A DNA stretch of 25,203 nt from a virus: positions 1 to 25,203 of IMG/VR virus record IMGVR_UViG_3300046777_002412, one strand, 5' to 3'. Positions 1,907 through 19,993 of the stretch are shown in pieces. The notes beneath the pieces were generated by a model. It searched no databases and had not been told where the DNA came from. It saw nothing but the letters and a program-made list of their open reading frames with translations. The translations under genes and the position numbers were made by a program. Position 1 is the stretch's first letter. Each line of letters opens with the position of its first letter.

Positions 1907-2335
1907 TTATTTAGATGGATCTTGATTCATTGAACTCTTTAAGAACTTTTGAAGTTCTGCAGTGGATCCCAAAAACACTGCATTGTTGGTAACATTCGTT
2001 GGTACGGATCCTTTTTGTTCTTGATTAATATCTTTCATCTTCTTCTGAAGATCGAGAAGTTTATCTGTAACATCTCCAACATTTTTAATGAGTTGCCCAG
2101 CAACTTCATATGCTCTTGGAGAATCGGATTCTTGTGCGAGTTCTAGGATACCATTAATTGCCTCTTGACCCTTTTCAATAATTGAATAGAGTTGACCTCT
2201 AGAATACTCATAATCTTTTTGAAGTTGATCCAGAGATTCTACAGGTTTAATTGCGGTGGGTTCTGATTTAACTATTTCCGATTTAATTGGAGTTGTTTCA
2301 ATATTCAAAGCCTTATCAATATCTTCAAAACTCAT
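1907..2335 (-). CDS. 16: Terminase small subunit gp16
   Basis: The product has 142 residues (T4 gp16 has 164) and should be the DNA-recognition and regulatory subunit of the packaging motor. It would form a ring that helps the large terminase gp17 start packaging at the portal. The central helical pair is characteristic of cyanophage gp16: DYEYSRGQLYSIIEKGQEAI, then ILELAQESDSPRAYEVAGQL and DVTDKLLDLQKKMKDI (about 41-105), a likely coiled-coil oligomerisation core. The tail with VTNNAVFLGSTAELQKFL also fits. The N-terminus (MSFEDIDKALNIE) is acidic and probably flexible. The start overlaps the gp15 stop as ATGA, with AAAGGA 9 bases upstream, so the two are translationally coupled. The frame ends with a double stop, TAA TAG. 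Confidence 0.88.
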   Translation of the reverse strand: MSFEDIDKALNIETTPIKSEIVKSEPTAIKPVESLDQLQKDYEYSRGQLYSIIEKGQEAINGILELAQESDSPRAYEVAGQLIKNVGDVTDKLLDLQKKMKDINQEQKGSVPTNVTNNAVFLGSTAELQKFLKSSMNQDPSK

Positions 2336-3381
2336 ACATCAGTTCCTTTAGTAGTACTATAAACTTTACCATCACCGTAATCATATCTAGATTCACTGAA
2401 TCCAAAGTCATCATCTAAATCAATCAATTCGTCATCAGCATTATCGATTACATTAAGTGCAGTTCCTGCTGCATGTGTTGTGATAGGAGTATTATCTTGA
2501 CCTCTATTTACGGTCAAAGTATTTCCAGAAATCTTACGAATAAACATGGATTCGGAACCAATCATAATATATGTTTTTTCAAGTAGAACTGATCCATCTA
2601 CAACATCAAATTGAGTTATATCTTCAGAGATATCTTCAGTAATTTGAGTAGTTTCATCGTTATTATAATCTTGTAATGCTCTAGCTTCTGCAACATATCT
2701 CAACTGTCTAGATGCATTAACTCTATTTGTATTGGTATAATAATCAACTTGGACCTGTTTAATCAATGCATCATTCGGTGTTCCAACTGGACCAAACAGA
2801 TAAGTCTTAGCAACGAAATCTAATGTGTATACTAAAACTCTTCTTGTAGTAAAATCTCCCTCATATTGATCGTCCATTGCGATTCTTTCAAGAATCATTG
2901 GAATATCTCTTTTTTCCCCAATACTCGATACCAAATCTACAGTTAGATTAAAATGTGGTTGAAAGTATGGAAGTATTTGTTCTACAACTTGTAATGCATC
3001 TTCATTTAATTTAGACATTATTGAAAGTCTAAAATTTACATTATATGGAACAGGCATAAAAACTTTTGTTAGTTCATTGTTTGCCTGGTCTAAGGCCTTA
3101 AAAGTTTGCATAGTAGAAGATTTTCTACTAGAATCATATGAAATCCCAGTCATTTCAAACGACATTCTTGGAAGAGTAATCGCAACTCTTTTCTTTAAAT
3201 CGGGAACTTGTTCGATTCTGGCTAAAAATTTTTGAACAGGACCATAAGCAATAGGAACTGTAATAATACTGAAATCATCTCCAGCATTATCTTTATGTTT
3301 AATCTGAATATTATTAAAAAGTGTACCGAAAGCCACTATGGTCTTTCTCAATATTTCGTGGTAAAAATAATTTGAGATCAT
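2332..3381 (-). CDS. 15: Tail sheath stabiliser and completion protein gp15
   Basis: The product has 349 residues. gp15 forms a hexameric ring that caps the finished tail tube and sheath and joins it to the gp13/gp14 neck. Recognition rests on the N-terminal YFYHEILRKTIVAFGTLFNNIQIKH, the PRMSFEMTGISYDSSRK region (71-87) and QVVEQILPYFQPHFN (131-145), which nearly matches T4 gp15. T4 gp15 is 272 residues, so this protein has extra C-terminal sequence. From about 262 to 312 there is a small beta module with FIRKISGNTLTVNRGQDNTP and HAAGTALNVI, a type found in many phage structural proteins. It is followed by an acidic linker (DDELIDLDDDFG) and a Tyr-rich end. The start ATG is 27 bases after the gp14 stop with only a weak ribosome site. 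A CTAAATAA box lies at the gp14 stop. Confidence 0.92.
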   Translation of the reverse strand: MISNYFYHEILRKTIVAFGTLFNNIQIKHKDNAGDDFSIITVPIAYGPVQKFLARIEQVPDLKKRVAITLPRMSFEMTGISYDSSRKSSTMQTFKALDQANNELTKVFMPVPYNVNFRLSIMSKLNEDALQVVEQILPYFQPHFNLTVDLVSSIGEKRDIPMILERIAMDDQYEGDFTTRRVLVYTLDFVAKTYLFGPVGTPNDALIKQVQVDYYTNTNRVNASRQLRYVAEARALQDYNNDETTQITEDISEDITQFDVVDGSVLLEKTYIMIGSESMFIRKISGNTLTVNRGQDNTPITTHAAGTALNVIDNADDELIDLDDDFGFSESRYDYGDGKVYSTTKGTDV

Positions 3382-3408: not shown

Positions 3409-4839
3409 TTAGTATTCGCCAAATGGGTTCTTTTGACTAAAGTCTAGAATATCATCAGCAGCTAATTCAATTTCAATGTTTTCCGCATATAGATCTAGAA
3501 ATTCATTTGTTTGAACTGTAGATACTTTATAACTTGCTCCGATACCAATAATAGACTCACCTCTAGCAAAATTACCGTCAACAATTGCAACCTTAAGAAT
3601 TCTATTAGTTGCATCCCAACTCTTAACATATCCTGTTGTACCAGTTCTTGATCCAGTAACAACTTCATTATAGTCATAATCTCCGAATGTAGTTGCGGTA
3701 GGATCTGTGAAGGATATTGTTGGAGTAAATGTATATCCTGCACCAGCATTAGAATAACGGATTGCAACCACTACTCCATTAGAATTGAGAACTGCTTCTG
3801 CTTGTGCATTTCTGATATTAGAAGAAATGCCCGTGCTGGTAGGAATGAAGGTTCTTTGTATTGTAACTTGAGGAGTTGTGGTGTATCCAACACCACCGGA
3901 AGAAATTCCAATGACTCCTAGAACTCTTGTATTAATTACTGCAGTTGCAATTCCACCACTTCCACCACCACCAGAAATAGTAACCGTTGGTGGTTCAGTG
4001 TATCCGAATCCAGGATTTGTGATGAGAATTCTATCAATTGCAAGTTTTTGATTTGTAGATCTACTTGTCATGATTGCAACAGCAGTTGCAGTCAATCCAC
4101 CTGCCGGTGCAGTAGATATAGAAACTATAGGTGGGAAAGAATATCCAAATCCATCATTAATAAGATCAACATATTGGACTGACTTGGAATTAGGATCAGT
4201 CGTTGCAAATCCAACTGTAGCTACTGCAGTTGTTGCACCCGTTCCAACCATTTGAATAGTATAAACATTTCCAAGATCTTTAATAGATTCATTGATCTCT
4301 ATTCCAGTAGAATCAACTTCAGGAACATCAATAATTTCATCTTCATATTCAAATCTCTCACATCTCAGTTCATAAACATAAAGATTGTTGAGTTGGTAAA
4401 AGGGTTTCTTACCCTCAACATATTTTATTTCAAATAAAGACTCATCAAGAGGAAACCAAATCAAATCTCCTTCTTGTGGTCTATAAGCAACTTTTCTCTC
4501 ATCCTCTGGCCATAATTTTAATAAAGGTGAAATGAAATCGTCATATCTTTCCTTTGAAATTACAAGATTGATTTCATCATTACTTCTGACACCAAACTTT
4601 GTAAGAAGATCTCCATTACCACTAAATCCCTCAAAGTTCATTAAATAGGCTTCAATACGAAAACTATCATCAAATTTTGATGCAGTAACCTCTTTGATAA
4701 CTGTATTTTCTCCAATAATTCTTCTAGGCATGTATAGAACATCTTGTCCATACATTTTGAGTTGTTCGTTAATTAGATCTTGAATAAGTCTCTGCTCACT
4801 CGGAGATCCTTGAAGAAAATAAGAATTGAGTGGTGACAT
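3409..4839 (-). CDS. 14: Neck protein gp14 with a large beta-repeat insertion
   Basis: The product has 476 residues, much longer than T4 gp14 (256). gp14 with gp13 seals the filled head and forms the surface the tail binds. Residues 1-190 look like the conserved body: SPLNSYFLQGSPSEQRLIQD, LYMPRRIIGENTVIKEVTAS, and PQEGDLIWFPLDESLFEIKYVEG. The extreme C-terminus (LAADDILDFSQKNPFGEY) also looks canonical. Between about 191 and 445 sits extra sequence with four related motifs: DGFGYSFPPIVSIS (229), PGFGYTEPPTVTIS (276), GGVGYTTTPQVTIQ (315) and AGAGYTFTPTISFT (365). A TGSRTGTTGYVKSWD segment follows (396-410). These look like beta-solenoid or immunoglobulin-like decoration projecting from the neck; that placement is inference. 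The start follows the gp13 stop by 1 base. Confidence 0.92.
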   Translation of the reverse strand: MSPLNSYFLQGSPSEQRLIQDLINEQLKMYGQDVLYMPRRIIGENTVIKEVTASKFDDSFRIEAYLMNFEGFSGNGDLLTKFGVRSNDEINLVISKERYDDFISPLLKLWPEDERKVAYRPQEGDLIWFPLDESLFEIKYVEGKKPFYQLNNLYVYELRCERFEYEDEIIDVPEVDSTGIEINESIKDLGNVYTIQMVGTGATTAVATVGFATTDPNSKSVQYVDLINDGFGYSFPPIVSISTAPAGGLTATAVAIMTSRSTNQKLAIDRILITNPGFGYTEPPTVTISGGGGSGGIATAVINTRVLGVIGISSGGVGYTTTPQVTIQRTFIPTSTGISSNIRNAQAEAVLNSNGVVVAIRYSNAGAGYTFTPTISFTDPTATTFGDYDYNEVVTGSRTGTTGYVKSWDATNRILKVAIVDGNFARGESIIGIGASYKVSTVQTNEFLDLYAENIEIELAADDILDFSQKNPFGEY

Positions 4840-4840
4840 A

Positions 4841-5671
4841 TTAACCTATGAGATCAAGTGGTGGTAATTCGTATTCATCCTTAAGTTGTTGTTCCAATTT
4901 TTCTACTTCCGCAACACCATCGTCATAAATCTGTCTTCCATTCAACTGAACTCCACCTGGAAGTAAGACCCCATTGAATTTAATCATATTCTGTCCCCAC
5001 TGTTTTTTAATTAATGCAGTGAGGTATTTCTTCAACCACCAATCGTTGTAGAGTTTTGGGGCATCTGATGGATCTACAATTCTGTAACAATCGATGATTA
5101 CATATTCATTTTCACCAACCTGAGACCAATCAATATCAAGATATAGTTTATGATTCTTCTTGTTGAATCTAATTTGTGCGTGTGGATTTAAAAGAAAATC
5201 CAAATCTTCAAGGTATCTCTTGACCATTGCATAGTTTAGAAGATCTAATGCACCATAATAGTAAACATCATTCAAGAATAACTGATATTTAATATTAAAA
5301 AGACCGTCTGAAATTGTACTAGAATTTATTTTAAGAATATTATTTACGCCAATAATACTATCTGGAAGAGGTAAATAGTTGACTCCTTCAACATAAGTAA
5401 GAGAAGTTAAACCAGCTCCAACGACACTACCTGAAGTGGATGCAGAACCTACTGGACCTGGTTGAGCCAGGGTTGTTTTAGTTGCAGGAGTAAGTTTATG
5501 TTTTAAAAATACACGATCAATACCATCAAAATGACGCTCATGGTAATATTGAATTGCATCATCAATTAAATTATCAATCTGATCGTCATCTACATTTATT
5601 TCTAAAACTGGCTTTCCTAGTTGTTTGAGGCAATAGTCTTTCAACTCCGCTCTACTAGATGGTTGCGCCAT
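4841..5671 (-). CDS. 13: Neck protein gp13 (head completion)
   Basis: The product has 276 residues (T4 gp13 has 309) and should be the head-completion adaptor that binds the portal after packaging. The N-terminus is diagnostic: SSRAELKDYCLKQLGKPVLE, then an acidic stretch (NVDDDQIDNLIDDAIQYYHE) and HFDGIDRVFLKHKLT. A low-complexity loop follows (PGPVGSASTSGSVVGAG, about 71-88), then conserved gp13-like segments YLPLPDSIIGVNNILKIN and MVKRYLEDLDFLLNPHAQIR. The C-terminal half (NDWWLKKYLTALIKKQWGQN, LPGGVQLNGRQIYDDG) is also typical. It is the first gene of the 13-14-15-16 cluster. The ribosome site AGGGG (5684-5680) lies 8 bases before the ATG, inside the 3' arm of a hairpin, so start-site access should depend on which promoter made the message. 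Confidence 0.93.
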   Translation of the reverse strand: MAQPSSRAELKDYCLKQLGKPVLEINVDDDQIDNLIDDAIQYYHERHFDGIDRVFLKHKLTPATKTTLAQPGPVGSASTSGSVVGAGLTSLTYVEGVNYLPLPDSIIGVNNILKINSSTISDGLFNIKYQLFLNDVYYYGALDLLNYAMVKRYLEDLDFLLNPHAQIRFNKKNHKLYLDIDWSQVGENEYVIIDCYRIVDPSDAPKLYNDWWLKKYLTALIKKQWGQNMIKFNGVLLPGGVQLNGRQIYDDGVAEVEKLEQQLKDEYELPPLDLIG

Positions 5672-5700
5672 AAAAAATACCCCTAGTTTCCTAGAGGTAT
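5672..5700 (-). terminator. Intrinsic-terminator-like hairpin that contains the gp13 ribosome binding site
   Basis: Read on the minus strand, positions 5700-5691 pair with 5686-5677. This gives a 10-base-pair stem with one G-U wobble at 5682/5695, and a GAAA tetraloop at 5690-5687. Five unpaired T residues follow (5676-5672) and run directly into the gp13 ATG. The 3' arm contains AGGGG (5684-5680), the only good Shine-Dalgarno for gene 13. RNA reading through from the dioxygenase gene would form this hairpin, which should favour termination and hide the ribosome site. Confidence 0.75.
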
Positions 5701-5705
5701 TTATG
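5698..5705 (-). promoter_or_regulatory. T4-like late promoter box CATAAATA upstream of gene 13
   Basis: CATAAATA on the minus strand fits the NATAAATA late motif used in T4-like cyanophages. By analogy with T4 spacing, transcription would begin near 5692. That lies inside the 5' arm of the hairpin at 5700-5677, so the late message would lack most of the 5' arm. The T4-like sigma and coactivator system that would read it is outside this window. Confidence 0.7.
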
Positions 5706-5745: not shown

Positions 5746-6507
5746 TCACCTAAGCCTCATAACAGCATTATTTACTTGAAAATTATTATTACTAATAGAA
5801 TTTATTTTTGACTTTTTATTAAAAAAGAATACTTGAAATAATCTAGAATTTTCTGGAGTTATTCCAAAATATTTTGTTGCAGAATGAAATCTTTTTGCAT
5901 TAAAAATAACACACCTATTATAAACATTTTCAACATAATCTACCATATCCCAATTATCAAAATTAGTACATTCTTCCTTTGGTATAACAACTTCGGAATT
6001 ATTTTGAAATTCTTCATTTGTTTTTTTGTATCTAAAAAATCCTGTTCCGGAACCTTCTGGTGGGTTTGGAGTTAAATATACTACTGCAGCATATGTGTTT
6101 CCGTGATCGGAATGTATCCACAATTCGGAGTTTTCATCACAATATTGAAAACATCCATTAGACAAAGACTCAAACATATTTAAAGTAATATTGGAGTCCT
6201 TTGTCCTCATGGATAGAGTATTAATATCGAATTCCAACATGTCCAAATTAGATTGAAAATCGCAAGTACTTGCAAAAATCCAACGACTTGGATCAATGTC
6301 AATATTATAATGTTTTTCCAATTTTAACTTATTTTCTATTAAATTTTTAATATCAGATTTACATCTATATCCTGGATATGTCGAATATCCATTTTCTTTT
6401 ATTTTTGATTCACCAAAACTTTTATCTAATTGTAATCTTTCTAATGCAAAGTTTCTTATTTTATCTGGATCTTCATACCAATTATCAACTATTACATAAT
6501 TTAACAT
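5746..6507 (-). CDS. Predicted 2-oxoglutarate/Fe(II)-dependent dioxygenase
   Basis: The product has 253 residues with a double-stranded beta-helix signature. The pair IHSDHG (His132, Asp134) and the distal His208 in CVIFNAKRFHSATKYFG form a plausible HxD...H iron triad. Arg222 in NSRLFQVFFFN is the likely 2-oxoglutarate anchor. The strand AAVVYLTPNPPEGSGTGFFRY (140-160) fits the post-triad region of this superfamily. The N-terminal half (YVIVDNWYEDPDKIRNFAL, YPGYRCKSDIKNL) resembles oxygenases of the DUF6445 kind; that family name is tentative. It starts 5 bases after the putative fibre-assembly gene and ends 74 bases before gene 13. There is no clear Shine-Dalgarno, and it looks more AT-rich than its neighbours, which hints at recent acquisition. 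The substrate is unknown: a virion fibre residue, a host protein or a small molecule are all possible. Confidence 0.75.
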   Translation of the reverse strand: MLNYVIVDNWYEDPDKIRNFALERLQLDKSFGESKIKENGYSTYPGYRCKSDIKNLIENKLKLEKHYNIDIDPSRWIFASTCDFQSNLDMLEFDINTLSMRTKDSNITLNMFESLSNGCFQYCDENSELWIHSDHGNTYAAVVYLTPNPPEGSGTGFFRYKKTNEEFQNNSEVVIPKEECTNFDNWDMVDYVENVYNRCVIFNAKRFHSATKYFGITPENSRLFQVFFFNKKSKINSISNNNFQVNNAVMRLR

Positions 6508-6916: not shown

Positions 6917-7477
6917 TTAGGTTCCAATTTCAAACAAGTATCCCATGGAACAAGTTCTTTCATAGTTACCTTGACCATTACTTGACCACGATCTATTTAA
7001 TCTCCACCAATCTTCATTTCCTTGGGATGATCTAACAGCTGGAGAAAAGTATAATCTACTTGTAGTGTTCGCTACACAATGATAAGTCAATTTAAAACTT
7101 GCAGGGGTAGAATCATTATTATTATCATACCAACCACCAATTAGACCAGACCATCTATTATTCCCGACTTCATTATTGAATCCTTGTTGTCCACCATCTG
7201 TAACTAGATCATCATTTCTATGAATAAGTAATACCTCATTCCAACTTACTTCTGCACTTATTACCCATTGCATTACTAAAATATTAGTGGATTTTTTAGG
7301 AACAACAGTCAAAGATAAAGCATTAAGTCTAGTACCATTGCCGGAATTTTGAGTATAAACTAAATATGGTTCACACGATTGATTAAAATCTGAAGAAACG
7401 ACATTTCCAACGCCCGAGGCGGATAATCTTTTCCCAGCAAGATTGTATATGTCGTTAACTCTAATTTCTGAACTCAT
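6917..7477 (-). CDS. Fibre/tip-type structural protein, paralogue A
   Basis: The product has 186 residues, probably beta-rich. Shared family landmarks are ALSLTVVPKKSTNILVMQW (about 53-71), a 'hydrophobic-RNDDLVTDGG' hairpin, GFNNEVGNNRWSGLIGGWYD (about 99-118), STPASFKLTYHC, and a C-terminal block with WWRLNRSWSSNGQGNYER ending MGYLFEIGT. The same landmarks occur in the next two upstream genes. Paralogue C is closest: GGQQGFNNEVGNNRWSG here aligns with GGEQGYNSEVGNNRWSG there. Related C-termini (LNRT.GSTGQD.HE...STGV..EI) occur, to my knowledge, in other cyanophage virion proteins. A receptor-binding or tip role is inferred from the position between the giant fibre and a fibre-assembly protein. 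The ATG is preceded by GGGA at 10 bases and by an AATAAATA box. Confidence 0.75.
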   Translation of the reverse strand: MSSEIRVNDIYNLAGKRLSASGVGNVVSSDFNQSCEPYLVYTQNSGNGTRLNALSLTVVPKKSTNILVMQWVISAEVSWNEVLLIHRNDDLVTDGGQQGFNNEVGNNRWSGLIGGWYDNNNDSTPASFKLTYHCVANTTSRLYFSPAVRSSQGNEDWWRLNRSWSSNGQGNYERTCSMGYLFEIGT

Positions 7478-7491
7478 AGTAGAAAATCCCG

Positions 7492-7499
7492 TATTTATT
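7492..7499 (-). promoter_or_regulatory. Late-promoter-like box AATAAATA, proximal
   Basis: AATAAATA lies 14 bases before the ATG at 7477. Transcription at T4 spacing would begin near 7486, leaving a very short leader of about 9 bases and removing most of the GGGA site. The distal box at 7550-7543 is therefore the better candidate for a translatable message. Confidence 0.4.
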
Positions 7500-7542
7500 A
7501 GTGCATTACTAAAAATTTAAAATATTAAATCATTCTTACCAT

Positions 7543-7550
7543 TATTTATT
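7543..7550 (-). promoter_or_regulatory. Late-promoter-like box AATAAATA, distal
   Basis: AATAAATA follows the TAA (7557-7555) of the 197-residue fibre-type gene and overlaps a CTAAATAA motif (7553-7546). It would give a leader of about 60 bases for the gene starting at 7477. It has the same arrangement after a stop codon as the box at 6906-6899. Confidence 0.5.
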
Positions 7551-7554
7551 TAGA

Positions 7555-8148
7555 TTAAGCTGTTGCTCCCTCTCCATTTTCGTGAGCTATTTCAAAAACA
7601 ACTCCTGTACAAACACAAATTTCATGGGCATCTTGTCCAGCAGAACCATAAGTTCTGTTAATAAAAACACTTCTACCACCATCATCAGCAGCTTGAGCAA
7701 CTACATCTAAGTTTACATTTCCAACAGCTCCAGCTCTACACATAAACATAAGTCTATAATTTGATGGAGTTGAACTATTATCTGCATCATGATATGCACA
7801 TACAAGACCTTTCCAATACCATTCATCACTTGGAGCTGAGGCGTTAGAAGTACCGAAACTATTATCTTGCCAATCTCCGTTTTTTAATACTTTAAAGGTA
7901 GTATTATTATCAGTTTCAATTTGCAACTGCCATGATGCTATCAAAATGTTATTTGGATGTTGTACATTATTTGCTGTCAATCTTAGTGCAAATAATGTAC
8001 TAGCGTTACTGCCAGCTACCCAACCCCTAGCATAGTATCCAGGTCGTCCATCATATCGCATTGTGCTGGTATTAATTACTGATCCATATGAAGGAATAAT
8101 AATGTTTCCACTCGTATCTCGTACATTATCTGCGTAAAGGAAACTCAT
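7555..8148 (-). CDS. Fibre/tip-type structural protein, paralogue B
   Basis: The product has 197 residues and is the most diverged of three adjacent paralogues. Family landmarks are LFALRLTANNVQHPNNILIA with SWQLQIE (about 52-77), FKVLKNGDWQD, WKGLVCAYHDADNSSTPSNY, and FINRTYGSAGQDAHEICVCT followed by GVVFEIA. It has a C-terminal extension (HENGEGATA) that the other two lack. The N-terminus (MSFLYADNVRDTSGNIIIPS) resembles the attachment segments of cyanophage fibre-associated proteins. The start at 8148 has a strong AGGAGAA about 9 bases upstream, placed in the 17-base gap after paralogue C. Likely virion protein; function inferred only from context. Confidence 0.75.
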   Translation of the reverse strand: MSFLYADNVRDTSGNIIIPSYGSVINTSTMRYDGRPGYYARGWVAGSNASTLFALRLTANNVQHPNNILIASWQLQIETDNNTTFKVLKNGDWQDNSFGTSNASAPSDEWYWKGLVCAYHDADNSSTPSNYRLMFMCRAGAVGNVNLDVVAQAADDGGRSVFINRTYGSAGQDAHEICVCTGVVFEIAHENGEGATA

Positions 8149-8165
8149 TTTACTTTTCTCCTAAG

Positions 8166-8732
8166 TTAACGAACGATTTCATAAATTACACCAGTACTCA
8201 CAGTCATTTCATGTCCATCCTGGCCAGTCGAACTACCCGTTCGATTTAAAAATAATGTATAGTTGCTACCACTAGAACTTCTAACGGCCGGTCCGTAAAC
8301 CCTACTCGATGTAGAATCTGCATTGCAAAAATACTGAATAAACCAGTGGTGGGGTGTTGATCCAGTATCAGAACTAGCAGCATCATATGTTGAACTGGCA
8401 AATCCGGACCATCTATTATTCCCTACTTCGCTATTGTATCCTTGTTCTCCACCAGTAGTAATTAATCCACCATCTCTAAAAATTGTAAAAACATTATCGT
8501 GATGAAAGTCTCCAGATAGTACCCATTGACATAATATTAAATTACCAGAATTTCTTGGTGCAATGGTTAACCTAAGAGGAGTAATTTCTGTTCCATTTCC
8601 TCCATTATTTGAAGACCAAGTAGTTCTTGAATCATATCTAACTCTACTACACTGAACAATATTTCCTGTAGATTGAAGAATAGGAGTTTGTGTAGATGTA
8701 CTAATGATATTATTTAAATTTAAAGTACTCAT
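8166..8732 (-). CDS. Fibre/tip-type structural protein, paralogue C
   Basis: The product has 188 residues with the same fold signature as its two downstream neighbours: PLRLTIAPRNSGNLILCQW (about 52-70), a FTIFRDGGLITTGG hairpin, GYNSEVGNNRWSGFASSTYD (about 98-117), VYGPAVRSSSGSNYTLFLNR with TGSSTGQDGHEM, and a TVSTGVIYEIVR end. Similarity to paralogue A extends to the DNA: both contain the 17 bases encoding NNRWSG and its flank, near 8406 and 7148. The N-terminus, MSTLNLNNIISTSTQTPILQ, resembles the start of many cyanophage short fibre proteins. GAGGGA 7 bases before the ATG overlaps the stop of the 57-residue gene, suggesting coupled translation. Confidence 0.75.
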   Translation of the reverse strand: MSTLNLNNIISTSTQTPILQSTGNIVQCSRVRYDSRTTWSSNNGGNGTEITPLRLTIAPRNSGNLILCQWVLSGDFHHDNVFTIFRDGGLITTGGEQGYNSEVGNNRWSGFASSTYDAASSDTGSTPHHWFIQYFCNADSTSSRVYGPAVRSSSGSNYTLFLNRTGSSTGQDGHEMTVSTGVIYEIVR

Positions 8733-9664: not shown

Positions 9665-12600
9665 TTATTCTCCTAATTTATTCTTAAGTTGTTCAATTTC
9701 TGTCTTCAAACTATTTATAATCTGGGTCTGTTCCTTGATAGCCTCAATAAACAATCCAGCAAAGTTTCCATAGGCAACCGAATATTCATCAACATCTGGT
9801 GCGTAATTAACAACTTCTGGAAGAATTGGTTCAACTTCTTGAGCAATTACACCAAGTTCAACTTTATCGTAACGAGGAGAATCTTCCTTAAGATCAATTC
9901 TCTTGTATGTTACACCGCGAAGTTGATTGACCTTATCAAGTGCATTAGTGACGGTTTCAATTTCAGTCTTCTTCCTTGCGTCAGATGCAGCCGTGATTGT
10001 TCCAGTCGCATAAGCATTACCAGAAACATATAATTGATAAGAAGAAGAAGTTGTGGAACCACAAATACCAAGAGAATTATTACTATGATCATAGAATAAT
10101 GCCCATCTACCACCATCTTCCCAATAAAGACCGCCTCTACCATTACCAGCGTTATCAAACATCAAGTGTGGTCTATTTGTAGCATTATATGATGTACCAA
10201 ACCAACCATTTCTAGATCCATCTTGTCTCCAAGAACCATAAGAGGAAGCATTGTTTGGATAGAAGTGAGCACTATTGGTATCTGAATAGAAACCGTTAGT
10301 ATTGGTATACATCCAGGTGTACTTAAAGATGTAGTTACTTCCACCATTAATCTGCATTACAACGGTATCATCATTATAGTCTCTCTTGAATCTGATTCCT
10401 TCATAACCGTTATTAGCAGCAAGAGTTACACCGGTGTGATACTGGAGAACCAGGTCAGGGAATGGGTTAGACCATCCGCCACTTTCTTGGAAACCAAAGT
10501 CATAAGGTCTACTACTTCTGGCAATGCTACTGTTAGATCCAGAATATGGGCTTTCATACCAAGTAGCTTGAATTTGTCCACTTGTATTTCTGACGGTAAC
10601 CGTTGAAGCAGTTGGACCCACAGCCGCATTATAACCATCCAAGAGGTCAGCATCAAGACCAGATCCAGAACCATCATTGGTATCATGCCAGATCTTTCTC
10701 CATCCACTGAAAGTACCACCATTATTTCTTCTCCAGAATGGGCCGGCATCACTGTCATATTGTGTTGCTAACTGCCAACCATATGCAGTTCCACCAGTAC
10801 TACCAAGACTATTGGTAGTGTAGTGAAGCATGTTAATGCCATGAATATGACTGAATGAACCTGGGAAGTTTGTTCCACTCCAAATATCAAAGAATCCAGA
10901 ACCACCATGGAATACTTCATTTGCGCCAGCCGCAACAGTATTTGACCATCCCATAGAACCAACCCAATAGTTGGAATCTGTAGTATTTTGTCTTCTATGA
11001 TAAGAGTTTTTAGCACTTAATCCAATTTGTTGTTTAAAGTTTGTGAGTGAAAGATATCTGATGTATCCATCATTTGAACAATATACACGATCTAATAAGT
11101 TTCCAACATCAAGATCACCAGAAGTTGTATTAATCCAACCCGCCTGAATGTAACCATTACCATCAGTTCTTACAACTTCATTCGCATTATCTGCACGACC
11201 ATCAGTATTGAGTGGAAGTCCTTGGAGATATTGGACATTCAAGTTATTAACTTGAGTTGTTGAAGTGACTGTAAGTGGTGCTGTACCTTGTGCAATTGTA
11301 GAAATTAATCTAGTTCCCTGAAGAGTTCCGATAACTGAAGCATTACCAGAAGCATCAATAGTAAATGTATTACTTCCCGAAGAGTTTCTCCAAATTCCGT
11401 TACCTGTATATTGTAGATATAAATTGGTGGAATGATATTGAATTTTAGCAGCCTTTTCTCCAGACCATGTACCACTAGTGAATGAAATATCACTATTTGC
11501 AGGCATTATAATTGCATTACTAATTGCCGCAAAAGTAACTGATCCAGTAAATGTTGGAGTTGCTGTTAAGTTATACGCAGATCCGTTACCAATTAGAATT
11601 GCACCATTTCCAGGTAAAGCCTGTAATCCAGTACCACCTCTGGTGATAGGAATATTACCTATGATGTTATTGATATCGAGGTAGTATGAAGCAGCATTTC
11701 CGTTAAAGGTTGCCGCGTCAACATCACCGCCCTGAGAGGTTGTCTTAATGAATACTTGACCGCTGCCTGTTGTAGAAATACCAAATGTAGAATTCTTAAA
11801 TGCAGCAATACCAAGTGTAGAGTATACATCTAAAGAAGGATAAACTCTATTCAAAGTAAACTGGACATTTCCATAATAAGTATTAACGCCTACACCTGCA
11901 GGAGCAAAATCAACACTGGTTGCAGTTACTCCAATTGGTTGCGTTGTACCAATACCAACAGACATTACAACTTTCTGATAAGAAGAATCTCCTCTTAAGA
12001 ATGTCTGACTGTTTGCAGACCCACTACCCAATCTGGATGGAGAAACAGTTCCACTTACAATATTAGCTGCATCTACTGTACTTGTTGCAAGTAGTGCCCA
12101 GTTGTTAACATCTGTAGATGAAGTATTGACAGTATCTGTATAGGTAATATTTTGTTTTGTGAATGATACGATTCCTGCTGTTCCTACACCAATTATATCA
12201 ACAGTATTGTAGAGTAGACCATTTGCAGAAAGCAACGCATCAGATCTTGTTAGGTGTAAAGTAAATGTGTTTGTTGTTCTAGATCCGATAAAGTAGAATC
12301 CATTTGTAGTAATTCCAATTGGAGTTACATTTCCGTTTCCAACAGTAATCTTAACTGGATCGCCTTGAGTAAATCCGTGATTTACAAAACAAATTTGATT
12401 TGTAGTTGTATTAATACCAAGTCTAGTTAAAGTATGTGTTCCAGTACCACTATCCGTAAGATTGACCTTACTTGACAATGCATAAGTATCATAAAGTTCA
12501 ACGGAGGTAACACCAACTCTCTTGACATAATAAGTATCAAGTAAAATGAGAGGTTCAACAACATTACCTGTACTATAGTATCTTACTGCATCTCCATCAC

Positions 12601-15600
12601 TAAACATGGTATTTGACGCACCAACGACAATTCTGTCATTTATGAAATCGACATTACCCCCAACATCAATTCCAGTTCCAGTAAATGACGCTGTTGTTGC
12701 GATACCAACATTAGTAGAAATAGCAACCGCATTTCTATCTGAAATATAATCTGGTAAAGAAAGTGAACCTAAGAATTTCTGATTATTTGTAAGAGTTAAG
12801 TAAAGTCTAGTTTCAACCGTTCCAATTCTGATTGTAAAGTCGGAACCTCCAGAACGACCTCCAACATTTGCAGGGGCAACAGTCACATAATCACCAACAG
12901 CATATCCCTTACCACCAGTCTCAATAGCAACTGCAGAGACTGTACCAGCAGCGCTAACAGTAACATTGAGGGACATTCCAGTACCAATACCGGTAGTTCT
13001 TAGAGCTTGTACTCCACTGTAAATACCAGCCGAAGTATAACCAGAACCACCAGCAAGAGTGTTTAGAGTAAGTCCAACACCCTTAACAAGGCCGGTTGTT
13101 CCATATCCAATAGCGCCGCCTGTGGTGTATGGCGGAGCAGTTACTAAACCTATAGCGCCGCCCTGAGAAACTGTACCTGTTACGGTGTCTCCATTTTGGA
13201 AATTATATGTTGATGTATCGGGAAGTATGATATATTGACTTAAAACATCACTTACAAGAACATATGCATTGATTGGTTCAACTACCGTATCTCCACTATT
13301 AATATCTGCTGCTGGAATTCTATTTGCAAGACTTGTTCTACCGCCAGCATAAATTGTTCTGAAATAGTTTACAACTTTAGGTGGAATCAAGTCTGCATTG
13401 ATTTGTCCAATTGAGTTTAACTGAACAACTGCAGATGGAACAGCATTTGTAGAAACTGTTTTATCAATAAAGGAACCAAGTCTGTTGCTTAAGAATGTTC
13501 TGATAGCTAACTGAGTGGAAACTCTCTTGTTTTGTGGGCCTCCAATTTCATTATCACCCAATCCAGTATCTGTGGAGAATTCTTCAATTTGAACACCTCC
13601 AGATAGGGACAATCGGATAGAATCAAGAGTACCAATGGTTACGGTGTTATTGAAGATAATGTTACCAGTTCTGTTGTATGCAGTAATAAAGTCACCGATC
13701 AAGAAGTCGCCAAGTTCGTTTGTACCTGATGTATAAACGCGGCCACCAAGTTCAGAAACCTGTTGAGAACTTGTTACCGTTTTACCACCGTTTTGCGGTA
13801 AAGCATTATAGTCAATACCAGATCCTGAATATTCCCATGTATGAGAAGAAGAGTTAACAATCGATGGTCTGTGGAAGTGAATTCTGTAAGTTTCAGGTAA
13901 AGAAGAAATACCAATAACTTGTGTTCCTGCAACTGTAGATTCGATCTTGAAGTTAATAGTCCAATAAGTTGAGATTCCAGTTACAGAAGTTGCAGCAATA
14001 GAAACTGGTACTGGACTATGATCGGAAATATTTCCATTAGCGCCGCCAGTTACAGCAAAGTTTCTTCTTACTCCAGATACAGCTTCAACAGAAAGTATTA
14101 CTACTCTTGTAGAAGAATTATAAGTTAGAGCGAATCCAACCGCAGTACCACCAGTAACAGTTTGAGTGACTTGTCTACCAGAAACAAATCTTATAGTTGA
14201 TGAAGTGGAAGCGAGTCCAACTGCTTGGTATTGGTTGTGTGTTCCTGAAGGAATAATTTCTTTTACAAAGAATTCTTGATTATTCTTTGTAAATGTGTTA
14301 ATACCAGTAGTTGTTGAGGTTAAATCTACTAGTCTAGTGAAACTATTGTCCTCATATACCTTAAAGGAATTACTGTCAATAACCTGTATATAATATTGGT
14401 TTTGGTTTACAAGACCGCCAATGATTCTTGGTGGAATTGTACCTTCATCACCAAGATAAACAACCGAATCTGCATTATTAAATCCATGAGCTGTAATGTT
14501 GAATATATTGTTGTTAATATCAACATCTGTTGCCGCATTGAATTCTTTTGTTACTACGAGTGGTTTGAAGTTTGCTGTTTGGTCTGAGAATGCATTATTA
14601 AAGAATCTTGTAACATAAAGATCTTGTTCACTTCTACCAACACCAATTGCTACAAGTGTCTGGAATCCACCAGCAGTACCTGTCGCAGCAATTCTACCAC
14701 GATCAAATAAGAAGGAATTTGCGCTAAATCCTGTTGATCTTAGTGCATAATATCCAAAGTTAGTCGCAGAGTTTGTAATGGATAAGTATCCACCAGACTG
14801 TGCAAGAGATCCATAACGACAGAAGATTTGGAAACAAGAAACAACCTGAGAGTAACCGTCGTTGATAACACGCCAACCGATACCACCGAAGGATACCATG
14901 GTAAAGGCCGCAGCAACCATGGACTTACCTTGTTCTGGTTGAACTAGGTCTGGAGCTAATTCTGCTTCTTCTGGAATAATTGGAATGTTTGGAGATAGTA
15001 CCTTAGAACCATCAACTAACATTCCGTTCGCACCTAAGAAAGATAGAATGGAACAGTTTTGAATATATGGAGATCTTGTAATTACTGATTTACCAGTCTT
15101 TACAGCATAACCGGCTCTAGATACAAAAGGATCATCTGGATCATCAAATGCAACTGCGTTATCAAATGTAAACTGAGGAACGCCTGCAGCATCTGCATAG
15201 TCCTTCATAGCAAAGCCAGTTAGGTAACAACCATTTCTAACTCTGAGAAGGTCTTTACCTGCGTTTAGAGGACGAATAATAGTGTTTCTTAAGTTATCTC
15301 CAAGTACTGCAACATCTTCATAAAGAATAATAGGGTTATCTTCTTCATATTCTCCAGCCTCTACAATAATTGCAACTGGTTGAGACTTACTTGTTGGTGT
15401 AGTTATTGCTGGAGCAGCAGTGGTTCCCAATCCTACAATTGAGGTAATAATTCCAACTAAGTTTGCAATCGTAGATTGGACATCAGCGCAAGCTGTTGAT
15501 GTGTAGAATAGTCCGACCGATTCATCATAAGCAATAGTTAGGTCATAAGACTGGAATGATGCTGTCTGATATAAACCTACTGGTCTACTGATTGATGGAG

Positions 15601-18600
15601 CAAAACTGACACCCTGACCGACAATCGTAGTAATAATACCAACAAGGTTATTGATGTTTGAACGAACATTTGCACAGCATAGGAATCCATAAGAATTTCC
15701 TGCTCCACAAGTCGCATCATAAAGAATTGATAGATCTTTAACTTGTGCAGTAGAACCTACACCAACCTGATAGGATACTGGAACAGTTACATTATTAATA
15801 ATATAACTAGAAATACCTGCAACATATCTAAATGCTGCAACTGTCTCCACCTGTTCGCCTTGTACATAACTCGTACCAAGACCACTCCAATACGAAACAC
15901 CAGCGCCAACAGATTTATAGTTGCCACCATACTTAACATCATAAGCAAGAGAATCAACAATATGTCTAACATCTCTCAGACACTTGGTTCTATCATAAGT
16001 TGGATTTGATAAAAGTCCCGGATAAATTGCAGTTACATATCCTACAGCTTCTGCAGCGATATAATTTTTGTTTAGAATGAGTAATCTAGAAGCATCATCA
16101 TATCTATTACCTGGGTCTGCAATTGCTACATTATTGATGATATACTTAGAAATATCTACAATATGTGTGAAAGCATCTGCAGTTTCAATTCTCTCTCCTT
16201 CCACATAACTTGTTCCACCAACACCCAACCAGTAGGATACGCCAGCACCAACGGACTTAGAGTTACCACCATAGGTTAGGTCATATGCAAGAGCGTCAAC
16301 AATATATCCAACATCTCTTCTGCATGTACTGGTAGCATAACCAGCGGAAGTAGTGATTCCTGGATATGTTGCGGTTACAAATCCAACAACCTCATCTTGA
16401 ATGAATGATTTATTAAGTGTTAATAGATTAGCCGCATCAAGATATCTTCCTCCAGGAAGTACAAAGGATTCAAATGATGCTAATTGAGCAGCCTTTTTAA
16501 TAGTTTTAACAGGCCTTGTCTTACCGTCATAAGTATCACTACCATTTGCTGCAGAAACATAGATTCTATTCTCGTATAAACCTGCAGTAGCAAATCCAAG
16601 ATTACCAAAGGTATCAACGGTAAGAACCATACCGTCCCTACCACGATCGGGTGGAAGAGTTAAAGTATAGTTGGTAGCGACTCCAACAGGAGATAACCTA
16701 AATGTAACATCATTTGGAAGTAATGTTTGTGTATTAACTCCAACAAATGTTAAAGTTGAAAGTCCTACTTTGTTGAGAGTGGAAATACCCGTGTAATTTA
16801 AATTAGATCCTTGTAAGAAAGTTACAATACCTGATCTGGAATTTAAATTACTTGCTCCAACGATTTCATTATTGTTACCACTGATTGTTACACTACCTTG
16901 ACCTACGGTAAGAACGCCAGTAATTCTTGCATTACCAGTGACAAGAAAATCAGTATTTCCATATCCAATCTTAACATTTCCAATAGATCCTAAACCAGTG
17001 TAACTAATATTAACACCACTTATATCAGTAACAACTCCAACTGAGGATTTAAGTACGCCAATTGTACCAACTCCAGGAACATTGATATTTTCTACAATCA
17101 AACCAGAAGTAATAATAGTAGTATCAGCAATAACAGTGTCAAAACTACCAATTCCACTATAAAATAGATTTCTACCTCTTAAGTTTGGAATTGTACTGAT
17201 TCCAGAGAATGCATCTTCAAAATAGAAGGTATCTGTTACAACAGCTCCGGCAGCATAAACAAATTGATAAGTATCAATTTTTCTAAACGCAAATGTTTGA
17301 GTAACTACACCAACTTGTGAAGGTGGTTGTGATAGAGTTATTGAACTAGAACCTACAGAAACAACAGTTGTGCCTGGTAATACGAAATCAGATGCGTAAA
17401 CATTAGATCCAACAACTACTCCAGATGTAGCAATACCAGTAATAGTACTTACACCCGTCGCCGATAAAGTACCCTGATATACTTTTTCTCCAACTGGTGA
17501 TGTTGTATTTGCGGAAAGAATTACAGATCCAAATCCAACACTTGTAACTGTAGTTCCACCTCCAATATAAGTTCCAGTAACTGCAGAGCCTACAAATATA
17601 TTAGAAGTATTGATGCCAGAGATCTTATTTCCATTTACACTTTCAATATAACCCGATGTTGTTTGGGTTGGAGCAACATTCTGTGCAAAACCAGTTATAG
17701 TAATAGAACTATTTCCAATTGCAGCAACAGATGTTCCTGGTAATAAATAATCATTTGTTACAGCATAACCGACTTGAATATTTGCGGTTGCAATTCCTGT
17801 AATTCTGGTCGTACTTGCATAAGCAAGAGTACCAGTGTAAGTTGTAACAATAGGATAGTCTACAACAACTCTTTGAGATGCACTGAATTCTCTTGATCTT
17901 AGATGGTCTACCCCAGTAATATTTGATGTAGTACCATCAAGAGTGATTGAAGAAACTCCAACTGTTAAAATACCAGTAACTCTTGCATTTCCAGTTACAT
18001 CAAGATTGATGGTGCTTGCAGGACCACTTTCAAAGGAATTGTTAGAAATAACCGTTGTATTTGTTGTATTTTGTGATAGTAATACGACCCCCGTTTCTAT
18101 TCCAGAAATTGTAGTGTTATATTGGAGATAAGTGCCAGAAATAACATTACCTGCGGCTAATGTAGAAATTCCAGTAACTGTTATAACTTTAGTAGGACTT
18201 GATCCAAGGGTTGGTGGAGTTAACCCAATTCCAGTGGCTGATCCATTTAAGTAGATTCTATCTCCAATTAGGTATCCAGAACCACCTCTTTCTACACTAA
18301 TACTTGTAATATCTCCCTCAGAGACAGTCAGATTAAATCTTGCACCAGCACCAGATCCATTCGTAGTTGAAGCAACGCTTACATAGGTTCCAGTACTATA
18401 CTCAGTAGCAACTCCAGTTGCTTGAATAGATCTTACAATTCTATTAGTAGAAATACCTGTAATTCTATCTGTTCCAACTCCCGCTACGAAATTTGTTCCA
18501 ACTCCACTATACGATGTGCCCAATGTACCTACAATAGTTGCAACATCGTATGGTTTTCCTACACCAAGAGTAACATTACTATTTGGATCATAAACTCCAT

Positions 18601-19993
18601 TAATATAATTACCTACCGTTGCAAGACCAGTTACATTGAAGTATGTAGCTAAACCAACAGAAGTGTAAGCATTATCCAATCTTGCACTTTGAATACCTAC
18701 GGTTGTTCCAATGCCAACAGAAATATAAGCATTATCCAATCTTGCGCTTTGGATACCTACAGTTGTTCCAATACCTACATTAACATATGCTAAATCTATA
18801 TTTGCTGCAGTTACAACCATTGTAGTTGCAATACCTACATTCATATAATTATTGTTGACGATCATTGTCGTCGCAATACCTACATTGATATTACCTGCGT
18901 CAATATAAGCAGTAGTAATAATGCCACTATTGATTTTAGCTACATTTGTATTTGTGGAATTAAGATTTAAATCTCCTCCGTTTAATTGAGTTAGATTTAA
19001 TTGTTGGATGGTGGCATTATTTACATTTAAAACATCAATATTTGCTTGTCCCATATATGGGTCAACAAAAGCAAAATCAGTTGTAAATCCAAGATTAATG
19101 AATGCAAAATTTACAACTCTTGAGAAAGTGAATGATGTACTTCCTGATGTACCCAAACCAACAGAAACATTGATTTGGTTAGCACCAATTGAAGTAATTG
19201 TTGTAACACCAAGAGCTCCTGGGTAGTCAACATAATCTCCAAGTGCAAGAGAGGTTGTTACTACACTAGTAATCAAGTCTGTACCAAATCCTGATGCAGT
19301 ACCAGTTCTTGTCGTAATGCCAAGAGTTCCAGTAGAAGACTGGGAAATGGTTACTGTACCATTATTAAGACTAGAAATACCAGTTACAGTTGTGTTAGAT
19401 AAAACTCCAGTTGCGCTTACACCATAACCAACTGAAACTAAATTAGTATTAACACCAATAATCGTGGTTCCATTATTTGTTAAAAAATTACCAGTGGATA
19501 ATCCGGTAAAATCTTGAGTTACATTTGTAGTATTTGTACCGACACCCAAAAATACAGTACCAATTCCTATAGAGGCTACGGATACTCCAATTCCAATATA
19601 TGTACCGCTTACTGCATAACCTACTCTAATATTATTAGTACCTACTCCAGTAATTTTATTTGAAGAAGTTGCAGAAAGAATACCAGATCTTTGGATCGGA
19701 TCTTCATATCTTACAGTAAGACTTCTAGCATTAACATCACCTTTTACTCGTACATCACCTATGACTCTAAGTTCATTTTCGGCTTGGATTGCACTGGTTC
19801 CAATACCTACTCCAGTCTTATTTGTTATTACTTGTGTCGCCGCTGCTCCAACTAAAGGGCGTCCCCCAACAGTAGTTCCATCATGAACTACCGCAATATC
19901 TAAAGTGGTATCAATAGTTAATTCGCCTTCTGCCCCTGTAAATATTGCATGTTCTGCAGTTGTTCCCCTTCTTAGTTGTACCTGCTTAGTCAT
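9665..19993 (-). CDS. Giant 3442-residue tail fibre with Mtd-like N-terminus and S74 chaperone
   Basis: This one uninterrupted frame covers 41% of the window. Residues 1-50 (QVQLRRGTTAEHAIFTGAEG, then VVHDGTTVGGRPL) match the N-terminal domain of major-tropism-determinant-type tip proteins. About 50-1130 are Thr/Ser/Gly/Val beta repeats, including 20-residue tandem units near 385-445 (NVGIGTTVGIQSARLDNAY). About 1145-1600 look like a pectate-lyase-type beta helix: YVSAANGSDTYDGKTRPVKT, two copies of a C-RDV-IVD-LAYD-YGGN unit near 1225 and 1338, and two NLVGIIT units near 1440 and 1500. Around 1970-2120 are further fibre motifs such as SSSHTWEYSGSGIDYNALPQ. About 2900-3300 resemble distal fibre sequence (GWQLATQYDSDAGPFWRRNN, DGSGSGLDADLLDGYNAA). 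The end is a peptidase S74 endosialidase-type chaperone beginning SDARKKTEIETV, with GVIAQEVEPILPEVV. Self-cleavage is expected before Ser3337, releasing about 106 residues that end in a coiled coil. It probably forms a trimeric receptor-binding fibre. Confidence 0.9.
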   Translation of the reverse strand: MTKQVQLRRGTTAEHAIFTGAEGELTIDTTLDIAVVHDGTTVGGRPLVGAAATQVITNKTGVGIGTSAIQAENELRVIGDVRVKGDVNARSLTVRYEDPIQRSGILSATSSNKITGVGTNNIRVGYAVSGTYIGIGVSVASIGIGTVFLGVGTNTTNVTQDFTGLSTGNFLTNNGTTIIGVNTNLVSVGYGVSATGVLSNTTVTGISSLNNGTVTISQSSTGTLGITTRTGTASGFGTDLITSVVTTSLALGDYVDYPGALGVTTITSIGANQINVSVGLGTSGSTSFTFSRVVNFAFINLGFTTDFAFVDPYMGQANIDVLNVNNATIQQLNLTQLNGGDLNLNSTNTNVAKINSGIITTAYIDAGNINVGIATTMIVNNNYMNVGIATTMVVTAANIDLAYVNVGIGTTVGIQSARLDNAYISVGIGTTVGIQSARLDNAYTSVGLATYFNVTGLATVGNYINGVYDPNSNVTLGVGKPYDVATIVGTLGTSYSGVGTNFVAGVGTDRITGISTNRIVRSIQATGVATEYSTGTYVSVASTTNGSGAGARFNLTVSEGDITSISVERGGSGYLIGDRIYLNGSATGIGLTPPTLGSSPTKVITVTGISTLAAGNVISGTYLQYNTTISGIETGVVLLSQNTTNTTVISNNSFESGPASTINLDVTGNARVTGILTVGVSSITLDGTTSNITGVDHLRSREFSASQRVVVDYPIVTTYTGTLAYASTTRITGIATANIQVGYAVTNDYLLPGTSVAAIGNSSITITGFAQNVAPTQTTSGYIESVNGNKISGINTSNIFVGSAVTGTYIGGGTTVTSVGFGSVILSANTTSPVGEKVYQGTLSATGVSTITGIATSGVVVGSNVYASDFVLPGTTVVSVGSSSITLSQPPSQVGVVTQTFAFRKIDTYQFVYAAGAVVTDTFYFEDAFSGISTIPNLRGRNLFYSGIGSFDTVIADTTIITSGLIVENINVPGVGTIGVLKSSVGVVTDISGVNISYTGLGSIGNVKIGYGNTDFLVTGNARITGVLTVGQGSVTISGNNNEIVGASNLNSRSGIVTFLQGSNLNYTGISTLNKVGLSTLTFVGVNTQTLLPNDVTFRLSPVGVATNYTLTLPPDRGRDGMVLTVDTFGNLGFATAGLYENRIYVSAANGSDTYDGKTRPVKTIKKAAQLASFESFVLPGGRYLDAANLLTLNKSFIQDEVVGFVTATYPGITTSAGYATSTCRRDVGYIVDALAYDLTYGGNSKSVGAGVSYWLGVGGTSYVEGERIETADAFTHIVDISKYIINNVAIADPGNRYDDASRLLILNKNYIAAEAVGYVTAIYPGLLSNPTYDRTKCLRDVRHIVDSLAYDVKYGGNYKSVGAGVSYWSGLGTSYVQGEQVETVAAFRYVAGISSYIINNVTVPVSYQVGVGSTAQVKDLSILYDATCGAGNSYGFLCCANVRSNINNLVGIITTIVGQGVSFAPSISRPVGLYQTASFQSYDLTIAYDESVGLFYTSTACADVQSTIANLVGIITSIVGLGTTAAPAITTPTSKSQPVAIIVEAGEYEEDNPIILYEDVAVLGDNLRNTIIRPLNAGKDLLRVRNGCYLTGFAMKDYADAAGVPQFTFDNAVAFDDPDDPFVSRAGYAVKTGKSVITRSPYIQNCSILSFLGANGMLVDGSKVLSPNIPIIPEEAELAPDLVQPEQGKSMVAAAFTMVSFGGIGWRVINDGYSQVVSCFQIFCRYGSLAQSGGYLSITNSATNFGYYALRSTGFSANSFLFDRGRIAATGTAGGFQTLVAIGVGRSEQDLYVTRFFNNAFSDQTANFKPLVVTKEFNAATDVDINNNIFNITAHGFNNADSVVYLGDEGTIPPRIIGGLVNQNQYYIQVIDSNSFKVYEDNSFTRLVDLTSTTTGINTFTKNNQEFFVKEIIPSGTHNQYQAVGLASTSSTIRFVSGRQVTQTVTGGTAVGFALTYNSSTRVVILSVEAVSGVRRNFAVTGGANGNISDHSPVPVSIAATSVTGISTYWTINFKIESTVAGTQVIGISSLPETYRIHFHRPSIVNSSSHTWEYSGSGIDYNALPQNGGKTVTSSQQVSELGGRVYTSGTNELGDFLIGDFITAYNRTGNIIFNNTVTIGTLDSIRLSLSGGVQIEEFSTDTGLGDNEIGGPQNKRVSTQLAIRTFLSNRLGSFIDKTVSTNAVPSAVVQLNSIGQINADLIPPKVVNYFRTIYAGGRTSLANRIPAADINSGDTVVEPINAYVLVSDVLSQYIILPDTSTYNFQNGDTVTGTVSQGGAIGLVTAPPYTTGGAIGYGTTGLVKGVGLTLNTLAGGSGYTSAGIYSGVQALRTTGIGTGMSLNVTVSAAGTVSAVAIETGGKGYAVGDYVTVAPANVGGRSGGSDFTIRIGTVETRLYLTLTNNQKFLGSLSLPDYISDRNAVAISTNVGIATTASFTGTGIDVGGNVDFINDRIVVGASNTMFSDGDAVRYYSTGNVVEPLILLDTYYVKRVGVTSVELYDTYALSSKVNLTDSGTGTHTLTRLGINTTTNQICFVNHGFTQGDPVKITVGNGNVTPIGITTNGFYFIGSRTTNTFTLHLTRSDALLSANGLLYNTVDIIGVGTAGIVSFTKQNITYTDTVNTSSTDVNNWALLATSTVDAANIVSGTVSPSRLGSGSANSQTFLRGDSSYQKVVMSVGIGTTQPIGVTATSVDFAPAGVGVNTYYGNVQFTLNRVYPSLDVYSTLGIAAFKNSTFGISTTGSGQVFIKTTSQGGDVDAATFNGNAASYYLDINNIIGNIPITRGGTGLQALPGNGAILIGNGSAYNLTATPTFTGSVTFAAISNAIIMPANSDISFTSGTWSGEKAAKIQYHSTNLYLQYTGNGIWRNSSGSNTFTIDASGNASVIGTLQGTRLISTIAQGTAPLTVTSTTQVNNLNVQYLQGLPLNTDGRADNANEVVRTDGNGYIQAGWINTTSGDLDVGNLLDRVYCSNDGYIRYLSLTNFKQQIGLSAKNSYHRRQNTTDSNYWVGSMGWSNTVAAGANEVFHGGSGFFDIWSGTNFPGSFSHIHGINMLHYTTNSLGSTGGTAYGWQLATQYDSDAGPFWRRNNGGTFSGWRKIWHDTNDGSGSGLDADLLDGYNAAVGPTASTVTVRNTSGQIQATWYESPYSGSNSSIARSSRPYDFGFQESGGWSNPFPDLVLQYHTGVTLAANNGYEGIRFKRDYNDDTVVMQINGGSNYIFKYTWMYTNTNGFYSDTNSAHFYPNNASSYGSWRQDGSRNGWFGTSYNATNRPHLMFDNAGNGRGGLYWEDGGRWALFYDHSNNSLGICGSTTSSSYQLYVSGNAYATGTITAASDARKKTEIETVTNALDKVNQLRGVTYKRIDLKEDSPRYDKVELGVIAQEVEPILPEVVNYAPDVDEYSVAYGNFAGLFIEAIKEQTQIINSLKTEIEQLKNKLGE
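15899..16320 (-). repeat. Internal duplication of about 340 bases in the fibre beta-helix region
   Basis: The segment encoding CRRDVGYIVDALAYDLTYGG and SVGAGVSYW (about 16320-16230) recurs about 340 bases later as CLRDVRHIVDSLAYDVKYGG and SVGAGVSYW (about 15985-15890). Each is followed by a YVEGE/YVQGE and FTHIVDISKYIINN-like segment. Two copies of a roughly 113-residue unit are therefore present in tandem. Confidence 0.75.
18661..18840 (-). repeat. 60-base tandem repeats within the giant fibre gene
   Basis: Positions 18661-18720 and 18721-18780 match at 52 of 60 bases, and 18781-18840 is a more diverged third unit. A fourth, shortened unit follows toward 18885. They encode repeats of 20 residues beginning N/S-VGI-TT (for example SVGIGTTVGIQSARLDNAY), in frame, consistent with duplication of one fibre rung. 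Confidence 0.85.

Follow-up and report, generated by a model that had tools for sequence, protein, structure and literature searches.

A late promoter box nested in a terminator-like hairpin over the gp13 ribosome site of marine T4-like phages

Immediately before gp13, the first gene of the neck operon of a T4-like phage, 34 nt of the minus strand combine a late promoter box, a hairpin, a Shine-Dalgarno (SD) sequence and a run of T. We conclude that this element is probably a self-bypassing terminator that also acts as a translation lock on the gp13 ribosome site. The window, by which we mean the whole stretch of DNA analysed, is a 25,203-base IMG/VR fragment, and its closest relative among the searched records is Synechococcus phage S-SCSM2R (gp13 78% identical). 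Along the minus strand it carries genes of fibre/baseplate-like character, three tail-fibre paralogues and two small genes, and these are followed by the neck operon, which comprises gp13 (neck/head-tail adaptor Ad2, 276 aa, 4841-5671; phrog_211 head-tail adaptor, 1.1e-46, and matches to relatives), gp14 (neck protein, second in the operon, 3409-4839; PF11649, phrog_460), gp15 (tail sheath stabiliser, 2332-3381; PF16724) and the small terminase subunit gp16 (1907-2335; PF11053, phrog_445). The last gene upstream of gp13, identified by its open reading frame and profile matches (DUF6445/phrog_1644, 5746-6507), runs in the same direction. From its stop (5746) to the late box there are 40 nt, and the element occupies the space between this stop and the gp13 ATG at 5671. 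Upstream of gp13 the genes are of fibre/structural type and have late boxes of their own. The gp55 gene is absent from this 25-kb fragment and is annotated in the relatives S-SSM7 and S-PM2; the box before gp13 is present.

The late box CATAAATA (5698-5705, minus strand, as are all parts of the element) overlaps the 12-nt 5' arm of the hairpin (5691-5702), which is followed by a GAAA loop (5687-5690) and a 3' arm (5675-5686) containing the SD, AGGGG (5680-5684), 8 nt before the ATG. An earlier note on this DNA had described a 10-bp stem, in which ATACCTCTAG (5700-5691) pairs with CTAGGGGTAT (5686-5677), one of the ten pairs being T-G, with five T beyond it. That anatomy proved correct base for base, every coordinate of the 34 nt having been checked, and the RNAfold structure has a longer stem of 12 pairs (5702-5691 with 5686-5675), four of them G-C, at -15.7 kcal/mol. 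As in an intrinsic terminator, a G+C-containing stem is followed by six T (5672-5677), a candidate terminator tail; a stock terminator scan of the window did not pick up this hairpin, probably because the A-T pairs of the box lengthen the stem into the T run. In T4 the late box covers -13 to -6 (PMC1524935). With CATAAATA at these positions transcription is predicted to start at the A at 5692, in agreement with the start proposed earlier, and would leave 2 of the 12 pairs.

The gp13 fold has a z-score of -5.74 and none of 200 shuffled sequences was equally stable. It is unique among the seven leaders folded, the six other ATAAATA leaders in the window giving 0 to -2.9 kcal/mol and z near 0. 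CATAAATA alone is no rarer in the window than chance (1 found, 2.6 expected), so significance rests on the combination of elements and not on the box. A chance origin was rejected on the fold z-score, the flat folds of the other leaders, the enrichment of box-hairpin overlap and the pair-shuffle tests, the last two given below. A search of Rfam gave no meaningful match for the module, its two sub-threshold snoRNA hits both lying inside coding sequence.

The module is also conserved. In 13 relatives its 27 nt are 85-100% identical to those of the window, compared with 18-35% for the 60 nt before the box and 65-95% for the first 300 nt of gp13, so that conservation is often higher in the module than in the gene. 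In L007, L010, L012 and S-SCSM2R the core is identical, against only 67-70% identity over the first 300 nt of gp13. What has been preserved is pairing: across 12 distinct gp13 modules 97.9% of stem cells are paired and four pairs have changed on both sides (for example C-G to A-U and G-U, or C-G to U-A), a level that shuffles reached once in 500 and to which slid structures came nowhere near. These are the compensatory changes that the earlier note had proposed to look for upstream of gene 13. A conserved recombination joint, in which a palindromic module marks the border where fibre blocks are swapped and expression control is secondary, would account for the finding that similarity among relatives begins exactly at the box with unrelated DNA upstream, but it is highly improbable given that differing stems with compensatory changes preserve pairing rather than sequence and that the same design also occurs inside other operons.

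Close relatives that keep the box and lose the hairpin had been named as a finding that would tell against the proposal; at 80% protein identity or more, both are kept in the relatives with upstream DNA, one of which (L013) has a weakened stem. At 62-69% identity L014, L016 and L021 have a box without a hairpin, and distant gp13 genes have either a box without a hairpin or no box at all, which counts against our explanation. So does L003, where the module is retained although the upstream gene is divergent and little read-through is expected. We do not claim that the hairpin occurs only where the upstream gene is co-directional, since L003 is an exception and the box-bearing divergent cases, mostly without a hairpin, are essentially one clade. 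A BLAST search of phage records with the 61-nt module returned only S-SCSM2R as a convincing match, because the stem sequence drifts.

Modules of this kind occur in two topologies. In the foot class (the window, G001, S-SCSM2R and L392) the 5' arm has the box at its base, and transcription is predicted to begin where that arm ends. The loop class (L253, L263, L266, L365, L390 and gp13 of S-PM2) consists of classical terminators whose loop holds the box, which places the predicted start within the 3' arm, as in the S-PM2 gp13 sequence ATCCCTATCTG-ATAAATA-CAGGTAGGGAT-TTTTT. In RNA from the predicted start 0-4 of 8-12 pairs remain across modules and, as modelled, both topologies give an RNA unable to rebuild the hairpin.

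We propose that a polymerase arriving from the fibre genes would transcribe both arms, whereupon the hairpin would form and the U run would favour release. Any RNA that reads past the T run would keep the SD paired and be silenced. At the box the late sigma factor would load polymerase for a start near 5692, inside the hairpin, and the RNA begun there, having no 5' arm, would pass the U run and expose the SD. The anatomy of the element, its conservation, covariation, enrichment and recurrence are observed here; its start site, the termination and the repression of translation are inferred. In read-through RNA of the window the AGGGG of the 3' arm has a predicted openness near 0, and over 35 foot-class gp13 leaders the predicted openness of the SD rises from 0.04 in read-through RNA to 0.43 in RNA from +1. 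The suggestion that the late RNA stays open is thus borne out in direction and falls short in degree, as the value remains below 1 and the SD of the window can pair with codons 4-7. This alternative fold (-7.1 kcal/mol) counts against our explanation; at z -0.52 it is no stronger than in shuffled sequence. The open state of the late RNA is, in these models, a relative one.

Late-promoter/ribosome-site hairpins are documented for T4 genes e, soc, 49 and I-TevI in PMC3014915 and PMC2988022, and by its sequence features the gp13 element belongs with this group. In both, the late box lies at or in the 5' arm, the SD in the 3' arm and the ATG a few nt further on, and the late start, predicted for gp13, removes the 5' arm. 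Read from the T4 genome, e (TATAAATACCTTC...AGGAGGTATTATG) and 49 (ATAAATACCCTTA...TAAGGGTTTATTATG) have the same ATAAATACC...GG layout as here. The T4-like principle put forward in the earlier note is supported by this shared foot layout, by the covarying stem and by predicted starts that remove the 5' arm here and in other modules. The two differ in that e and 49 have no T run, whereas the T run of the gp13 module makes it terminator-like and box-in-loop versions exist. In addition, T4 hairpins of this type serve late genes within early/middle transcripts, while gp13 lies in a late block. The hairpins of homing endonuclease genes (I-TevII, I-TevIII, segB and Aeh1 mobE) are alike in that the late promoter is so placed that late RNA loses part of the inhibitory hairpin; they differ in that the genes are inserted in early/middle operons and that the passages of PMC2988022 consulted describe no terminator tail.

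Given the absence of a long T run from the foot layout of T4 e and 49, the gp13 element could be a translation lock only, as in e, soc and 49, in which the hairpin hides the SD of read-through RNA and the T run is A/T-rich leader that causes no termination. The position of the SD, in the 3' arm and at good spacing, fits this reading, as do six foot-class relatives (L238-240, L252, L281 and L383) that retain the hairpin without a T run. In these, termination has evidently not always been kept, which also counts against our explanation. We nevertheless consider a lock alone unlikely, since most other foot-class gp13 modules keep the T run and the box-in-loop versions are canonical terminators. 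Moreover, in L262, L265 and L255 a separate classical terminator lies about 60 nt upstream of gp13, its T run abutting the late box, and the nested hairpin is either weak or gone. Together, the hairpins that lack a T run and the relatives with a separate terminator suggest that termination can be separated from SD burial, one stem usually serving both.

The converse reading is that of an ordinary fibre-operon terminator, overlapping the next promoter where intergenic space is short, with SD burial as a by-product. In its favour, the 3' arm lacks an SD in some modules (S-SCSM2R 190788), L256 has an extra SD downstream, and at the T4 wac-13 junction the SD stands apart from a strong hairpin. Against it, the other terminators of these genomes need no box. 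In a scan of eight genomes run without the ATAAATACC/GGTATTTTT pattern, [AC]TAAATA boxes overlap terminator hairpins at 18 of 616 sites, against 151 of 63,467 for permuted 7-mers (12.6-fold, p 8e-14), a slightly inflated value given that S-SCSM2R, G001 and G002 had been chosen for gp13 or a pattern match (15 of 613 without those three sites). Nearly all of the box-in-terminator sites in the eight genomes lead straight to a start codon. This enrichment, the repeated placing of the predicted start at or beyond the end of the 5' arm, and the versions that keep the hairpin without a T run make a terminator alone quite doubtful. In T4, with 96 boxes and 43 terminators, the same scan placed none of the boxes within a terminator hairpin. 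The T4 hairpin between wac and gene 13 (GGGGCC-GCAA-GGCCCC, 93,592-93,624; L559:43592-43624) has no late box inside and leaves the SD outside.

The nested design is not confined to gp13. A pattern with only ATAAATACC and GGTATTTTT fixed occurs in at least 119 stretches of viral contigs, and for 103 of 120 pattern matches read by script the start codon of an open reading frame follows within 22 nt, nearly always at 0-6 nt. Among 50 distinct box-hairpin-ATG modules that precede various genes, the count of inner pairs fitting their own partner is 188, compared with 126 +/- 5 when shuffled, and none of 20,000 shuffles reached 188. The genes behind these modules include gp13 of several clades, a distant gp13 family (phrog_211), RusA-like and RuvC-like Holliday junction resolvases, a tail-fibre assembly family and families of unknown function.

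A nested late-box/terminator module stands directly before the ATG of RusA-like resolvase genes in S-PM2 (L548:1471-1500; S-PM2 record 115,170), in L468, L513, L520, L539 and L544 (upstream of position 1501 in each), and in G001 (105854) and G010 (150033), and the same module precedes the RuvC-like resolvase gene of L141. In S-PM2 there are exactly two box-in-terminator sites, gp13, at position 66,798 of the record, and the RusA-like resolvase. A resolvase set gathered without reference to the hairpin contains 62 distinct upstream regions. A true late box occurs in about 12, and in 11 of these it lies within a terminator hairpin; the remaining regions have no box or a chance box inside coding sequence. 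The module is missing at this gene in the isolates P-RSM6, Syn1, S-WAM1, S-SZBM1 and DSL-LC02, where the gene lies inside or overlaps an operon, and on these five we rejected the idea that all isolates carry it.

The resolvase also bears on what the element is for. The earlier note regarded it as a time-of-expression switch that would at the same time insulate the neck operon from the fibre block. For gp13 the timing part is weakened by the late boxes of the upstream fibre genes: this block appears to be late too, read-through RNA would be mostly late, and insulation therefore fits better than timing. The gp13 element seems to be an operon insulator and not an early/late clock, and it would mainly keep the neck/packaging operon independent of the variable fibre block. 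Timing fits the resolvase better. In S-PM2 this gene follows nrdA-nrdB, which we take, from the T4 scheme, to be early/middle genes; an early/middle-transcript context suits it more than gp13, and by this analogy a late-only switch makes sense there. Before such genes the same device would enforce late-only expression.

More tentatively, as something possible rather than probable, marine T4-like phages may carry a portable element, a promoter set within its own terminator, which occurs in two or more topologies, ends the upstream operon and restricts reading of the next gene to that gene's own late promoter. Its placement at operon borders, as at the neck operon, and before RusA- and RuvC-like resolvases would parallel the T4 hairpin on the unrelated gene 49, as convergent selection for late-only resolvase expression. 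Gene 49, one of the known T4 hairpin genes (PMC3014915), encodes a junction resolvase unrelated to those of the marine phages. Intrinsic terminators and NATAAATA late promoters of cyanomyoviruses are known singly and have been predicted genome-wide, and the passages of PMC2984593 and PMC3037559 consulted make no mention of their nesting; nor did we find a nested late promoter/terminator in cyanophages in the open literature searched. To the known T4 device are thus added a terminator tail, the loop topology and a spread over operon borders in marine T4-like phages. If correct, this would unite an operon end, a promoter and a ribosome-site lock within 34 bases in one of the most abundant virus groups of the sea, provide a sequence rule for predicting such switches, explain how the variable fibre block can be swapped without disturbing the neck operon, and connect T4 with marine phages in how their unrelated junction resolvases are controlled. 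An RNA-seq study exists for S-PM2 (PMC5931967).

Several further features were observed. S-SCSM2R carries nested modules at 148,611, in the replication region and ahead of an unknown gene of 385 aa, at 190,788, before a carbamoyltransferase-like gene (annotated as a 2OG-Fe(II) oxygenase), and at 207,406, before a carbohydrate phosphorylase gene. At 6917-8732 of the window three consecutive genes (186, 197 and 188 aa) each match the C-terminal part of the tail-fibre family phrog_6942 and are, by these matches, tandem fibre-tip paralogues. A single 3442-aa open reading frame (9665-19993) probably encodes a giant baseplate or fibre protein. The gp14 of the window (3409-4839) is 476 aa long, compared with about 292 aa in S-PM2 and 762 aa in S-SSM7, and its extra C-terminal part (approximately residues 183-447) matches repeats of baseplate and other virion proteins.
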